Source: Gymnodinialimonas sp. 202GB13-11 (GTDB taxonomy: Bacteria > Pseudomonadota > Alphaproteobacteria > Rhodobacterales > Rhodobacteraceae). Taken from it: a DNA stretch of 64,000 nucleotides. Shown piece after piece: positions 1,003 through 6,561 of the stretch; within the stretch, counting starts at the first letter, position 1, and every line of letters begins with the position of its first letter. Under the pieces are notes generated by a model. The model saw only the letters and a list, made by a program, of their open reading frames with translations. It was not told where the DNA came from and did no database searches. The stretch is from NCBI RefSeq assembly GCF_040932485.1, contig NZ_JBFRBH010000001.1, forward strand, positions 2,356,001 to 2,420,000, given 5' to 3'. The position numbers were made by a program, and so were the translations under genes.

Positions 1003-1338
1003 TTGAAACTCGAGATTAAACCTACCAAAACCCTTATTGCCTTCGCCGCCGCTTTGACCATCGCGGCCCCTACTGCAGCGCTCGATATTCAGGCACCTGA
1101 CTTTGATCCCGGCCCACAATTCGATCTGCCGGGTGACATTGCTCCTCCGCAAAACGGCGGTGGCAATGGGGGCGGAAACAGCACAGGTCAGCCTGCCCAT
1201 GTAGGCGGCGACAATTTGATCGGAACGGCTTTTGTCGATCCGTGCCCGAACGGTGAGATGCAGGTTTCGTTCGAAATGGACGATGACAATCATCCGATCC
1301 CGACTTCTTTCTCGCGGGAATGTGTTGCCCTGCGGTAA
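1003..1338 (+). CDS. Small secreted Cys-module protein, family member 1
   Basis: 111 residues, unrecognised. A TTG start is preferred because AAGGA sits 8 nt upstream and the resulting N-terminus is a signal peptide: a basic stretch, a hydrophobic core (LIAFAAALTIAAP) and AxA near residue 26. A Pro/Gly/Asn-rich linker of about 45 residues follows, then a conserved C-terminal module bounded by two cysteines 26 positions apart. Inside it are an aromatic residue at module position 10, Glu at 11, Asp at 13 and Ile at 19. The next gene (1526) is a clear paralog with a near-identical module, and the two genes after it carry diverged copies. The protein is probably exported and disulfide-bonded. Function unknown. 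Confidence 0.75.
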   Translation: MKLEIKPTKTLIAFAAALTIAAPTAALDIQAPDFDPGPQFDLPGDIAPPQNGGGNGGGNSTGQPAHVGGDNLIGTAFVDPCPNGEMQVSFEMDDDNHPIPTSFSRECVALR

Positions 1339-1445
1339 GACACGGAAATGCTGAAATGGCCTGCTTCTTCGGGGCGGGCCAATCGCGCCAACCCGTCGAA
1401 ATGCCATTCGGCAAGTCCCTGCCGACCAGTCAGGAAACCCACCAT

Positions 1446-1461
1446 ATCACGGCCCCGTGAT
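1446..1461. promoter_or_regulatory. 16-bp palindrome ATCACGGCCCCGTGAT, copy 2
   Basis: A perfect palindrome with a 2-base centre, 64 bp before the ATG at 1526. It matches copy 1 (926-941) at the TCACGG..C.GTGA core and is likewise preceded by GTCAGGA 18 bp to the left (1429-1435). The block GACCAGTC[AG]GGAA..CCACCAT is repeated upstream of the gene at 2021 (from about 1924), so part of the promoter region appears duplicated three times. Confidence 0.5.
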
Positions 1462-1475
1462 TGCCCCGTATACCT

Positions 1476-1511
1476 AAGGTGCGAGTATTTTTTCGCAAAA
1501 ACACCTTTTTA
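1476..1511 (+). terminator. Intrinsic terminator or attenuator between the two paralogs
   Basis: AAGGTG (1476-1481) pairs with CACCTT (1502-1507), with a CGA/TCG pairing inside and a run of Ts at the end (1506-1510). It lies 15 nt before the start codon of the 1526 gene and downstream of palindrome copy 2. It could therefore end the transcript of the 1003 gene or attenuate the next gene. Confidence 0.5.
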
Positions 1512-1525
1512 TTCGGAGCATTTCA

Positions 1526-1861
1526 ATGACCAACCTCAAGACCTTTGCGTCGCATCTTCTGATCGCGTCCGCCGTCGTTTTCACGGCTGTCCCTGCCGTT
1601 GCCTTTGATGGCGCAACTGATTTCGCCCCCGGCGGCAATGGCCCCGACCCGTGGGAGCCCGGCGGTTTTGCCCCCAACCCGACCGGTGGTGGTGGTGGTG
1701 GCGGCGGCGGTGCCGTCAGCCATGGTGGTGGCGACGGTTACATCGCGAACACCGCGCCCGATCCATGTCCCAATGGCGAGCTGCGCGTGTCGTTTGAGAT
1801 GGACGCAGATGGCCATCCAATTCCCACGTCATTCTCGCGCGAATGCGTGGTCTTCCGCTGA
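1526..1861 (+). CDS. Small secreted Cys-module protein, family member 2
   Basis: 111 residues, the same length as the 1003 product and clearly its paralog. It has a signal peptide with a VFTAVPAVAF cleavage region, a linker with a run of nine glycines (encoded by GGT/GGC repeats around 1684-1710), then the 27-residue cysteine-framed module, which differs from member 1 at only a handful of positions. The module contains a D-A-D-G turn, which resembles calcium loops or tight beta-turns, but one such turn alone proves nothing. An intrinsic terminator follows at 1879, so the gene is probably its own transcript or ends one. Confidence 0.75.
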   Translation: MTNLKTFASHLLIASAVVFTAVPAVAFDGATDFAPGGNGPDPWEPGGFAPNPTGGGGGGGGGAVSHGGGDGYIANTAPDPCPNGELRVSFEMDADGHPIPTSFSRECVVFR

Positions 1862-1878
1862 TCGCTACGACCATTCCG

Positions 1879-1906
1879 GCCCGCCCTTAATCGGGCGGGC
1901 ATTTTC
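1879..1906 (+). terminator. Intrinsic terminator
   Basis: GCCCGCCC (1879-1886), a 6-nt loop and GGGCGGGC (1893-1900), followed by ATTTTCTT. It begins 18 nt after the stop of the 1526 gene. A strong, classical hairpin plus T tract. Confidence 0.85.
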
Positions 1907-1930
1907 TTGGCGGATCCTTGCTGACCAGTC

Positions 1931-1948
1931 GGGAATGCCACCATTCCC
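1931..1948. promoter_or_regulatory. Palindrome GGGAATGCCACCATTCCC upstream of family member 3
   Basis: Perfect 7-bp arms with a 4-base loop, ending 72 bp before the ATG at 2021. The surrounding block (GACCAGTCGGGAATGCCACC) aligns with the block that precedes palindrome copy 2 upstream of the 1526 gene. The promoter regions of members 2 and 3 thus share ancestry even though the palindromes differ. Confidence 0.35.
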
Positions 1949-2020
1949 AGTGTCGCCCCATGGTCACAAACTGGCCTCGGGAAACGGGATCATCGCCCTA
2001 ACACCTGAAGGAACCTTACG

Positions 2021-2305
2021 ATGACCCGCATCACGAAACTGACCCTGTGCGCCGTACTGGCGCTGACCCCTGCTCTGGCTTCGGCCCAAACCTTGCGCGT
2101 TCAACCCGCTGAACCCACCGTGCGTGGCCTGACCGCTGGCGCATTGCCGGATAGCCGCACCCAAGGCCCGCAAACGCCCACTGGCACAAGCGCCTGGGAT
2201 GTCATTTGTGGCGAGGCTGGATATCTCCAGTGGTGGGAAGAGGACGAAAACGGGAATGAAATTACCGGCACCATCCAGACCGAATGCCTGCCCGATGACG
2301 GGTAA
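2021..2305 (+). CDS. Small secreted Cys-module protein, family member 3
   Basis: 94 residues. A signal peptide (LCAVLALTPALASAQ, cleavage probably after ASA) is followed by a linker of about 35 residues with Pro, Thr and Arg. The C-terminus is a module of exactly 27 residues from Cys to Cys, the same spacing as in the two preceding products, with Trp at module position 10, Glu 11, Asp 13, Gly 16 and Ile 19. Overall identity to members 1 and 2 is low outside these positions. AAGGAA lies about 7 nt before the ATG. The stop overlaps the next gene's start region by 11 nt, so 2021 and 2295 are translationally coupled. Function unknown. Confidence 0.7.
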   Translation: MTRITKLTLCAVLALTPALASAQTLRVQPAEPTVRGLTAGALPDSRTQGPQTPTGTSAWDVICGEAGYLQWWEEDENGNEITGTIQTECLPDDG

Positions 2306-2603
2306 GGTAAATCGCCGGATTGGCGGGGTGATCGCGCTGGCCTGCGCGGTTACCTTGCCGATGGCCCCGACCTCTATCTCGGCACAGGCGCAGATCCGGG
2401 CCCTGCCCGATGCTCCGCTACCAGTTGCCCCCACATTGCGCGCCCCCGGAGAGCCGCGCGGAACAACGGCCAATCCACCCGTGTTCTGTGAAGATGATGA
2501 TTGGTTCTATTGGTACGAGGAAGACGCCAGCGGCAACGAAATCCCCGGCACCCGCCAATATGGCTGCGCCGACAGCGAGCCGTCCGATACCGGCATGGGC
2601 TAA
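2295..2603 (+). CDS. Small secreted Cys-module protein, family member 4
   Basis: 102 residues from the ATG at 2295. The open frame extends upstream to 2199, but the ATG gives a proper signal peptide (basic KVNRRIGG, then GVIALACAVTLPMAP, with a cleavage site near SAQA). A Pro-rich linker follows, then a 27-residue Cys-to-Cys module rich in Trp, Tyr, Asp and Glu: position 10 aromatic, 11-13 EED, 16-19 G-N-E-I, as in member 3. It overlaps the 2021 gene by 11 nt and ends 48 nt before prfC. A short tail of about 10 residues follows the second cysteine. Function unknown. Confidence 0.7.
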   Translation: MTGKVNRRIGGVIALACAVTLPMAPTSISAQAQIRALPDAPLPVAPTLRAPGEPRGTTANPPVFCEDDDWFYWYEEDASGNEIPGTRQYGCADSEPSDTGMG

Positions 2604-2651: not shown

Positions 2652-4262
2652 ATGTTGGACAATCGCCCCACCCTTCCGCCCGAGATTGCGCGCCGCCGCA
2701 CCTTCGCGATCATCTCGCACCCAGATGCGGGCAAGACCACGCTGACCGAAAAGTTCCTGCTTTACGGTGGCGCCATCCAGATGGCCGGTCAGGTCCGCGC
2801 CAAAGGCGAGGCACGCCGCACTCGGTCGGACTTCATGCAGATGGAAAAAGACCGCGGCATCTCCGTCAGCGCCTCGGCCATGTCCTTCGACTTTGCCACA
2901 CCGGACGTGAACTACCGCTTCAATCTGGTCGACACGCCTGGCCACTCCGACTTCTCGGAAGATACCTATCGCACGCTCACCGCCGTGGACGCCGCGATCA
3001 TGGTGATCGACGGCGCCAAGGGCGTGGAGAGCCAGACCCAGAAACTGTTCGAGGTCTGCCGCCTGCGCGATCTGCCGATCCTGACCTTCTGTAACAAGAT
3101 GGACCGCGAAAGCCGGGATACGTTTGAGATCATTGACGAAATTCAGGAAAACCTGGCCATCGACGTCACGCCTGCAAGCTGGCCCATCGGCGTGGGCCGC
3201 GACTTCCTCGGCTGCTACGACTTGATCCACGATCGGCTCGAACTGATGGACCGCGCCGACCGCAACAAGGTGGCGGAGTCGGTTTCCATCAACGGCCTAG
3301 ATGATCCCGCGCTTGAGCAACACATCCCCGCAGACCTGCTCGCCAAGCTGCGCGAAGAGGTCGAGATGGCGCGGGAGCTTCTGCCCCCCATGGACGCGAC
3401 CGCCTTCAGCCAGGGCACATTGACGCCGATCTGGTTCGGCTCCGCGATCAACTCCTTCGGCGTGAAGGAACTGATGGACGGGATCGCCGAATATGGGCCG
3501 GAACCGCAGGTGCAAAACGCCGAGCCCCGGGAAGTCGCGCCCGAAGAAAAGAAGGTCGCCGGTTTCGTTTTCAAAGTGCAGGCCAATATGGACCCAAAGC
3601 ACCGCGACCGCGTCGCGTTCGTGCGCCTCGCCTCCGGCCATTTCAACCGCGGGATGAAACTGACCCATGTGCGGTCCAAGAAGCCGATGGCGATCTCCAA
3701 CCCCGTCATGTTCTTGGCGAGCGACCGCGAATTGGCGGAAGAGGCCTGGGCCGGGGACATCATCGGCATCCCGAATCATGGCCAGCTTCGCATCGGTGAC
3801 GCGCTGACCGAGGGTGAAGCGCTGCGCTTCACTGGCATCCCCTCCTTCGCACCTGAACTGCTTCAATCGGTCCGTGCGGGCGATCCGATGAAGGCCAAGC
3901 ACATGGAAAAGGCCCTGATGCAGTTTGCCGAGGAAGGCGCGGCCAAGGTCTTCAAACCGACCTTCGGCTCGGGCTTCATCGTTGGCGTCGTGGGCGCGCT
4001 GCAATTCGAAGTGCTCGCCAGCCGGATTGAGCTGGAATACGGCCTGCCCGTACGCTTCGAGGCGTCGCAATTCACCTCTGCCCGCTGGGTCCATGGCCCG
4101 AAAGAAGCGGTCGAGAAATTCGCCGCCGCCAACAAGCAGCACATCGCCGAGGATAATGACGGTGATCCAGTCTACCTGACACGCCTGCAATGGGACATCG
4201 ACCGGGTGGAACGCGATTACCCGGACGTGACCTTGTCAGCGACAAAGGAGCTGATGGTCTGA
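2652..4262 (+). CDS. prfC: Peptide chain release factor 3
   Basis: 536 residues (about 530 is usual). RF3 is a translational GTPase that removes RF1/RF2 from the ribosome after peptide release. GTPase motifs are visible: G1 HPDAGKTT at residues 23-30, the switch I region with RGIS at 68-71, G3 DTPGH at 94-98 and G4 NKMD at 148-151. EF-Tu domain-2-like and C-terminal RF3 domains follow. The ATG at 2652 was chosen over an in-frame TTG at 2616 because family members begin just before the PPEIARRRTFAIISHPDAGKT region. The 3' end overlaps the 4190 frame. Confidence 0.95.
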   Translation: MLDNRPTLPPEIARRRTFAIISHPDAGKTTLTEKFLLYGGAIQMAGQVRAKGEARRTRSDFMQMEKDRGISVSASAMSFDFATPDVNYRFNLVDTPGHSDFSEDTYRTLTAVDAAIMVIDGAKGVESQTQKLFEVCRLRDLPILTFCNKMDRESRDTFEIIDEIQENLAIDVTPASWPIGVGRDFLGCYDLIHDRLELMDRADRNKVAESVSINGLDDPALEQHIPADLLAKLREEVEMARELLPPMDATAFSQGTLTPIWFGSAINSFGVKELMDGIAEYGPEPQVQNAEPREVAPEEKKVAGFVFKVQANMDPKHRDRVAFVRLASGHFNRGMKLTHVRSKKPMAISNPVMFLASDRELAEEAWAGDIIGIPNHGQLRIGDALTEGEALRFTGIPSFAPELLQSVRAGDPMKAKHMEKALMQFAEEGAAKVFKPTFGSGFIVGVVGALQFEVLASRIELEYGLPVRFEASQFTSARWVHGPKEAVEKFAAANKQHIAEDNDGDPVYLTRLQWDIDRVERDYPDVTLSATKELMV

Positions 4263-5359: not shown

Positions 5360-5459
5360 TGTTTTGCGTATGGGAACATTCGCTGCCGAACGTGCCGATT
5401 GTTCGTTGAAATACGTCAAAAAGCGGGACAATTTCTGGGCCAGTGAAGGATTGTTTCCC

Positions 5460-6065
5460 ATGCCATTGCGTAACCGCGTTCTGCCCACGGGCCAGATTGT
5501 CGCCGACCCGGCCCGGGGAACCCTCACCGGCAATCGCGGCATTCTGGTGGATCGCGACGGTCGGATGACCAATCGCCAATGGGCGCTAAAGGCTTGGATT
5601 ACATGCGTTTTGGAGTTTCGAGGCCGCAGGCGCCCGGTCGCGCAACCTCGCACCTGGACCGAGCTGTTTTTCCTGGACGAGGCCGTGGCGTTTTCAGCCG
5701 GGCATCGCCCCTGCGCTTATTGCAGGCGAGCCGATTACAACCAGTTCAAGGCGCATTGGGGCGGCCTGAAAGCGGGCGAAATGGACCAGATATTGCACGG
5801 CGAACGGCTGAATGGGCGGGAAAAACGGCTGCATTCGGTGCGTTTGCAAGATATGCCGGATGGGGCGTTCGTGTTGCAGGATGAACGCCCCATGCTGGTG
5901 ATGGGAGATGCGCTGTTGCCCTACACGCCTAATGGCTACCGTCCCCCAAAACCGCGCATGGACGGCCCTGCGGAAGCCCTAACTCCGCCAAGTCTGATCG
6001 AGATCCTGCGACACGGCTATCGCCCAAAACTGCACCTGACAGCCGCGCCCGCCCCATTAGGTTAG
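5460..6065 (+). CDS. Conserved hypothetical protein with Ada-like GHRPCxxC knuckle
   Basis: 201 residues from the ATG at 5460, which has GAAGGA 9 nt upstream; the frame is open further up to 5304. The start region MPLRNRVLPTGQIV and the block FLDEAVAFSAGHRPCAYCRRADYNQF belong to a widespread uncharacterised bacterial family. The segment DEA-x4-AGHRPCAYCRR resembles the second zinc half-site of the Ada N-terminal domain (EA...GFRPCKRC), which is my only functional hint. A second basic block (LNGREKRLHSVRL) and a C-terminal TPPSLIEILRHGY block follow. No transmembrane segment. It stands alone between a divergent gene and a lipoprotein gene. Confidence 0.65.
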   Translation: MPLRNRVLPTGQIVADPARGTLTGNRGILVDRDGRMTNRQWALKAWITCVLEFRGRRRPVAQPRTWTELFFLDEAVAFSAGHRPCAYCRRADYNQFKAHWGGLKAGEMDQILHGERLNGREKRLHSVRLQDMPDGAFVLQDERPMLVMGDALLPYTPNGYRPPKPRMDGPAEALTPPSLIEILRHGYRPKLHLTAAPAPLG

Positions 6066-6099: not shown

Positions 6100-6561
6100 A
6101 TGCGTATTCTCGCCCTATTCCTGGTTCTCTTCTGTGCAGCTTGCACGCCGCAATCGGGCACGCTGAGCTCGCCCGCGCTTGGGGCACAGGGCGATTTCAC
6201 GGAACAGATCGCTATTTCCGACCATCCCCATCATGTTCTGATGGGCCACGTCATCGATTTCACTCAAAACGGCGCGCGCACCCGTGCCCTCGTGATCGGG
6301 CAACGCCGCGACGGCGTGCATCGCCTGCGCATGTCTGAGGCATGGAATGGCGGCACGGCCCTCCCATTCACAGCTACGCACCGGCGGCTGGATGGGTGCA
6401 CCCACGGCCATTGCCGCGACAATGCAGTGGGCATGATCCTGCTGTCCGATGCGCTGTTTCAGGAGGTGCGCGCGACGGGCCTGACCGCACGTCTGATCGG
6501 CACAAGCGACGCCATTAACATCCGGGTCCCTGCCACCCTGTTTCGCGCGTTGCCGGAATAG
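6100..6561 (+). CDS. Putative lipoprotein
   Basis: 153 residues. The N-terminus (MRILALFLVLFCAAC) is a lipoprotein-type signal with the acceptor Cys at residue 15. The -3 position is Cys rather than the usual Leu/Val, so lipidation is likely but not certain. The remainder is a soluble domain with two close cysteines (DGCTHGHC) and no family I can name. A His/Asp-rich patch (ISDHPHHVLMGHVIDF) is notable. It lies 34 nt after the 5460 gene and may share its transcript. Confidence 0.6.
   Translation: MRILALFLVLFCAACTPQSGTLSSPALGAQGDFTEQIAISDHPHHVLMGHVIDFTQNGARTRALVIGQRRDGVHRLRMSEAWNGGTALPFTATHRRLDGCTHGHCRDNAVGMILLSDALFQEVRATGLTARLIGTSDAINIRVPATLFRALPE

Follow-up and report, generated by a model that had tools for sequence, protein, structure and literature searches.

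A 27-residue two-cysteine module in a narrow family of small, putatively exported proteins encoded before prfC in Gymnodinialimonas

Lineage-specific (orphan) small secreted proteins with few cysteines exist as a kind in bacteria. Two further systems, which are defined by their sequence patterns, can be compared with the proteins described here. The first one is the family of DxDxDG calcium loops, to which we presume that the residues E11, D13, [DN]15 and G16 of the module introduced below can be likened. The second one is the thyroglobulin type-1 repeat, which has a layout of six cysteines. One published description names CWCV as the signature at the core of the thyroglobulin type-1 fold (PMC7863939).

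The window, a stretch of 64,000 nucleotides from the genome of Gymnodinialimonas sp. 202GB13-11 (4.0 Mb, labelled G000), contains between a SnoaL-like gene and prfC four small genes on the plus strand, named P1 to P4 (Table 1). Relatives are labelled G001 to G180, and the prfC loci carry L numbers. The TTG start of P1 recurs, together with its context, in G004. For P4, the ATG at 2295 is usable as a start, and the mechanical list of open reading frames gave 2199; when translated from 2295, the gene shares its first 11 nt with the end of P3 and stops 48 nt before the start of prfC. Of five neighbouring genes tested, one encodes a Hint_2 fragment, one a SnoaL-like protein and one is prfC; the other two have no Pfam match at E ≤ 0.001. 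Downstream of prfC, two genes (5424-6062 and 6100-6558) are conserved at those loci of the genus that were inspected, with identities of 65-84% and 53-80%, respectively; neither has a Pfam match at E ≤ 0.001, and the second has, by eye, a lipoprotein-like beginning.

Table 1. Features of the four-gene block and its flanks, with coordinates in the window.
Feature	Position	Strand	Description
SnoaL-like gene	448-813	minus	upstream flank of the four-gene block
P1	1003-1338	+	ORF, TTG start, 111 aa, signal-peptide-like start, F-type module at 1243-1323
Upstream element GCCGACCAGTCAGGAAACCC	1421-1440	+	105 bp before P2
P2	1526-1861	+	ORF, 111 aa, Gly9 linker, F-type module at 1766-1846
Intrinsic-terminator-like hairpin	1879-1900	+	after P2
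Upstream element GCTGACCAGTCGGGAATGCC	1920-1939	+	101 bp before P3
Leader element GGGAAACGGGATCATCGC	1979-1996	+	18 nt, before P3 and several relatives
P3	2021-2305	+	ORF, 94 aa, W-type module at 2207-2287
P4	2295-2603	+	ORF, 102 aa, W-type module at 2487-2567
prfC (peptide chain release factor 3)	2652-4262	+	Pfam RF3_C and GTP_EFTU; synteny

By eye, the starts of all four proteins resemble Sec signal peptides, and the cleavage sites of P1 to P4 were placed, likewise by eye, at TAA/LDI, AVA/FDG, ASA/QTL, and AQA/QIR. The linkers comprise 54, 54, 40, and 32 residues, respectively. If cleaved at these sites, the mature chains contain exactly two cysteines each; their content of proline plus glycine is 21-38%, and their net charge ranges from -8 to -11. 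Each protein carries a C-terminal module, which in all four cases measures 27 residues from Cys to Cys. A sequence-only reading of this DNA had listed six fixed positions within the module, and these hold in P1 to P4: position 10 is F/F/W/Y, position 11 is E, position 13 is D, position 16 is N/G/G/G, position 19 is I, and position 22 is S/S/T/T. Positions 10, 11, 13 and 19 were found to vary in the larger set, which consists of 15 modules of 27 residues from 10 genomes (G009 and G010 being identical). Here, Cys1, Cys27 and S/T22 occur in 15/15 modules; D13, G16 and an aromatic residue at position 10 in 14/15 each; E11 and I19 in 13/15 each. In none of the 15 does a cysteine occur at any position other than 1 and 27. 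P1 and P2 had been called near-identical; the identity of their modules is 85%, that of the whole proteins only 55%.

Based on their sequences, the modules fall into two sub-types, the F-type (CPNGE..FExD; P1, P2 and relatives) and the W-type (..YWYEEDANGNEIPGTRQYGC; P3, P4 and relatives). The combination of E/D/Q11, D/N13 and S/T22 with the 27-residue spacing is found in the 15 modules, which correspond to 15 of the 17 locus genes bearing two C-terminal cysteines. The alignment of the F-type and the W-type profile gave a probability of 94.8% and an hhalign score of 32.55; the mean scores of shuffled profiles (n = 150 for each scheme) were 7.8-7.9, and the highest score was 13.8 when all columns were permuted and 14.1 when the Cys columns stayed in place. 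Judged by these profiles, F-type and W-type modules are homologous beyond chance. Bridging sequences are known from G004, which carries CGNGEMFYWYEEDANGNEVPGTRQYGC alongside CPNGEMQVSFEMDADGHPIPTSFSREC, and from a genome of another genus, G180, which contains CGDGNWFVFWQNDAEGHWIPGSFDFGC. The G180 module reached 33.8 bits under a model built without G180, and the best of 904 reported shuffles scored 8.2. For the diverged module of G006 the score was 4.7 bits; this value was equalled by two of 1000 shuffles, the best of which gave 7.1, and the putative membership of this module has moderate support only.

The sequence-only reading had named no described family with this layout, and the model searches agree: P1 to P4 have no match at E ≤ 10 among the models of Pfam and NCBIfam, and none at E ≤ 1 among those of PHROGs and PADLOC. 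The module family was also not met in a literature search, part of which was too loose to weigh. It is a real but narrow family, for which these four collections hold no model. In a comparison with the PDB (177,635 sequences), the closest resemblance was to the hairpin of thyroglobulin type-1 repeats. For the mixed and the W-type profile, thyroglobulin was the sole match below E = 1; the match falls on the core of several repeats, near CVDxxGxEIPGTR, and is lost when the W-type profile is reversed. A secreted protease inhibitor, acting in the manner of the hairpin portion of thyropins (thyroglobulin type-1 domains), would be in line with this result. However, the E-values of 1e-10 and 9e-08 are that low because they were summed over repeats which are mutual copies; no single repeat scored higher than 12.8 or 10.8 bits (i-Evalues of 0.7 and 2.8), and the reversed W-type control reached 12.2 bits with an unrelated chain. 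The F-type profile did not find thyroglobulin, its matches being other PDB chains with E-values from 0.37 upwards, and a search with the whole P4 protein gave two unrelated enzymes at E = 1.3-1.4, again not thyroglobulin. The domain model PF00086 has no match in P1 to P4 (hmmscan, E ≤ 10); over the 13 genomes of the genus it gave zero matches above the cut-off, and none of the 15 places listed is at this locus. In addition, the CWCV core is missing from the modules. Membership in the thyroglobulin type-1 domain family was rejected, as the CWCV cysteines are lacking and PF00086 is silent at the locus, and we consider an inhibitor of this kind highly improbable. The turn as such may work like the hairpin of the type-1 domain.

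A profile search of the own genome detected four modules, all of them at this locus. Within the genus, the 27-residue module is present in nine of 13 genomes: G000 has four genes, G004 has three, and G001, G002, G005, G006, G007, G009 and G010 have one each. The genus was covered by single-protein searches (P2, P3) and by inspection of the stretch before prfC, such that additional copies elsewhere are possible. P3 matched at E ≤ 0.001 in six other genomes of the genus. Wherever prfC shares their contig, the module genes stand before it, both in the genus and in G180, whose gene is placed directly before prfC at a distance of 62 nt; in G007, whose contig stops short of prfC, the gene adjoins the SnoaL-like gene.

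A profile search across the bacterial family, of the kind that had been suggested as a check, was carried out with 295 genomes and returned only G000 and, as one of the 294 others, G180 from a different genus. A second genome of the genus of G180 gave no match at E ≤ 0.1. Among 385 genomes of the class, the profile matched besides G000 only G048 (E = 0.0045 over 17 positions), and this match was judged to be due to chance after the frames had been read. Among 398 genomes of the phylum, G000 and G006 were the only matches at E ≤ 0.001; note that the G006 module is itself part of the profile. The family, class and phylum sets are samples that were searched with a loose first pass, and distant members can be missed in this way. 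A scan of genome contigs resulted in 64 pattern stretches and one confirmed locus, which is the same as G004:C5; candidates were confirmed against the first profile row only, a procedure that may overlook relatives of the W-type. From a set of 84 prfC loci, which includes those of the genus and, twice, that of G180, the stretch before prfC was parsed in 82 (all except L027 and L077), and a signal-peptide scan of the prfC loci covered those up to L090. Frames of the type C-x25-C outside the genus and G180 were seen in five loci (L043, L048, L062, L064, L107) and appear chance-like by eye.

Mobile elements were searched as well. By means of tblastn, neither P3 nor P2 matched any of 72,556 plasmid records, and P3, the only query used in this case, matched none of 50,697 phage records; two scans of viral contigs gave 43 and 107 pattern stretches without a confirmed relative. 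In view of these searches, a mobile or phage origin was rejected. The same results argue against a secreted peptide whose antibacterial or signalling activity resides in the C-terminal module. Such a function would fit proteins that are small, fast-evolving, duplicated and variable between species and that possess signal-peptide-like starts, but the mature chains are acidic rather than cationic, and the five neighbours (two of which lack a Pfam match) include no recognisable immunity, transport or processing gene. We therefore regard a peptide system of this kind as very unlikely.

Identical spacing, as claimed by the sequence-only reading, is true of the module family and of P1 to P4, but not of every gene at the locus. 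In G008 (L035), a gene 50 nt before prfC encodes a pair of cysteines 31 residues apart, CPPGSSLHWSINTDPTEPGPPLGANGYVLGC; in G003 (L037), the corresponding gene is located 49 nt before prfC, and the cysteines are 30 residues apart, CPPGGSLHWEIVAPPEPGQAWHPSGYLLSC. Both proteins have signal-peptide-like starts, their signal-peptide region is similar to that of the module family, and their C-termini follow the pattern CPPG[SG]SLHW...GY.L.C. Other Cys spacings in homologs had been named as an argument against a shared module, and the two genes are in part such a case, though their modules are not statistically alignable with those of 27 residues: in the two comparisons, two of 100 and seven of 100 shuffles score equally well. 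Because a BLASTP comparison of the G008 protein with the G002 protein is not significant (E = 43), the kinship of these genes rests on the locus, the signal-peptide region and the upstream element. Possibly, they result from a head swap or from fast divergence. A two-row profile of the 30/31-residue variants gave weak matches in six of 290 genomes (E = 0.001-0.0075), which were judged to be chance matches on reading the frames. In G011 (L036), the gene before prfC keeps the W-type signal-peptide and linker part and ends without a module; in G012, no gene was seen before prfC. As G012 lacks the gene and G011 lacks the module, the function is dispensable.

The regulatory environment of the genes was analysed by means of pattern searches. 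The pattern GCYGACCAGTCNGGAANNCC occurs without mismatch at two sites of the genome, both of them in this block (window positions 1421 and 1920), and the next best sites carry two mismatches. With up to three mismatches, 31 sites were found versus 37 for a backward control; therefore, only the exact sites stand out. The related search with GCYGACCAGTCNGGAAANCC located, within five mismatches, a site upstream of 12 of 17 genes at a distance of 95-105 bp from the start codon, among them those of G003 (five mismatches), G008 (four) and G011 (three); since a part of these sites had entered the pattern, the numbers of matches are circular to some degree, and the fixed distance is less so. The five genes without such a site are both P1 genes and those of G006, G007 and G180. 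In 68 control regions (67 from other genera plus a short stretch of G007), the lowest number of mismatches was five, which occurred once, followed by six; thus, the G003 site is no better than the best control. Six genes, which are P3 and the genes adjoining prfC in G004, G002, G008, G005 and G001, are preceded by the leader element at a distance of 36-42 bp from the start codon, with two mismatches or fewer; the lowest value of the 68 controls was five.

An inverted repeat, TCGGCA-N6-TGCCGA (1408-1425), overlaps the -100 element of P2 and was, by eye, also seen in some relatives; it could be a regulator site. A stable hairpin is located 3' of P1. Given the hairpins after P1 and P2, the genes P1, P2 and P3-P4 may be separate units. 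The number of terminator-like sites between 800 and 2800 (two found versus 1.9 expected) is weak by itself. Rfam gave two sub-threshold matches at 1833-1908, over the terminator-like hairpin.

Selection on the genes of the family is purifying. In seven ortholog pairs, dN/dS values of the whole genes ranged from 0.026 to 0.19: P1 gave 0.111 and P2 gave 0.118 (both window versus G004), the other two P2 pairs gave 0.132 and 0.19, and the W-type pairs gave 0.142 (G004-G002), 0.157 (G001-G005) and 0.026 (G009-G010). These ratios indicate that the frames are real and constrained, with a constraint far below that on prfC (0.023-0.040 in three pairs). Values for pairs of doubtful orthology, in which P3 or P4 was set against the only W-type gene present in G004 or G002, were 0.296 (P3-G004), 0.365 (P4-G004) and 0.477 (P4-G002); the paralogs gave 0.244 (P3-P4) and 0.182 (P1-P2). 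Altogether 12 pairs were compared, five of which yielded no ratio for the module. For the seven computable pairs, the dN/dS value of the module was lower than that of the rest in six cases, for example P1 (0.049 versus 0.135), G001-G005 (0.042 versus 0.259) and G004-G002 (0.046 versus 0.193), and there was one tie (P2-G007, both 0.107). The P2 pair of window and G004, for which no module ratio was obtained, runs opposite, as the module is 81.5% identical and the rest 91%.

These values also bear on the question of whether the genes are merely young orphans of little function, which are translated by happenstance and spread by local duplication. Such an origin would account for a family that was found in only one genus and one genome of another, for its absence in G012 and the module-less gene of G011, and for some whole-gene dN/dS values of 0.3-0.5. 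On the other hand, the orthologs are under purifying selection, the upstream element is kept at a fixed distance, and the cysteines are retained in 15/15 modules, which makes this explanation unlikely.

The reading that we prefer, and to which we assign about an even chance of being correct, is that of lineage-specific exported proteins presenting a disulfide-clamped binding hairpin on a flexible stalk. The putative Sec signal peptide, as recognised by eye, would direct the proteins to the periplasm or to the outside, and the Pro/Gly-rich linker of about 32-54 residues would form a disordered stalk. The sole two cysteines left after the presumed cleavage could then form one disulfide, which clamps a two-stranded hairpin: strand 1 would cover about positions 6-12, positions 13-16 would form the turn (D-x-[DN]-G), and strand 2 would contain I19, P20 and S/T22. 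The pattern of conservation fits the beta-hairpin that the sequence-only reading had suggested, which would be closed by a disulfide and turn at D-x-[DNS]-[GN]. Most likely, the conserved clamped hairpin would be the head of the protein and bind a partner located outside the cytoplasm. The copies would stem from duplications at a single locus in front of prfC and may subsequently have diverged into F-type and W-type heads, and the position of the common element, about 100 bp upstream of the start codon, suggests that many copies are controlled via this element.

The acidic residues around the turn allow for a different assignment, in which E11-x-D13-x-[DN]15-G16 constitutes a DxDxDG-like loop that would bind Ca2+ and stiffen the turn of a Ca2+-responsive exported hairpin. 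An acidic residue at position 11 occurs in 14/15 modules, D13 in 14, D/N15 in 13, and G16 in 14, and the net charge of the mature chains (-8 to -11) is consistent with this idea. However, the first ligand would be Glu and not Asp in 13/15 modules, and the 30/31-residue variants do not show the acidic loop pattern. In the EF-hand pattern, a hydrophobic residue is found one place off the module's position 19; moreover, such turns occur in plain hairpins too. A response to calcium is for these reasons quite unlikely.

The genes before prfC clearly exemplify a young family of small, putatively exported proteins, with one locus and traceable duplication, which combines a conserved two-Cys frame, divergent stalks and a common upstream element. 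Should the clamped hairpin of the preferred reading have a defined binding partner, it would represent a very small binding unit closed by a single disulfide and would illustrate in a simple way the diversification of secreted heads. A comparison with the described systems shows likeness as well as difference in each case. Like the thyroglobulin type-1 repeat, the W-type has D-x-x-G-x-E-[IV]-P-G-T-R-Q around the turn and a cysteine on either side, at single-repeat scores on the level of noise; in contrast to this domain (PF00086), the modules possess neither the CWCV cysteines nor the N-terminal part, and have two instead of six cysteines. With DxDxDG or EF-hand-like loops, they have in common, as a sequence pattern only, alternating acids followed by glycine (positions 11, 13, 15, 16), whereas Glu comes first and the hydrophobic anchor is shifted by one. 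Finally, the family resembles orphan small secreted proteins by its signal-peptide-like start, low-complexity linker, two cysteines, rapid divergence and the lack of a model; it differs from these in that the locus, the upstream element and the set of paralogs define one traceable family.
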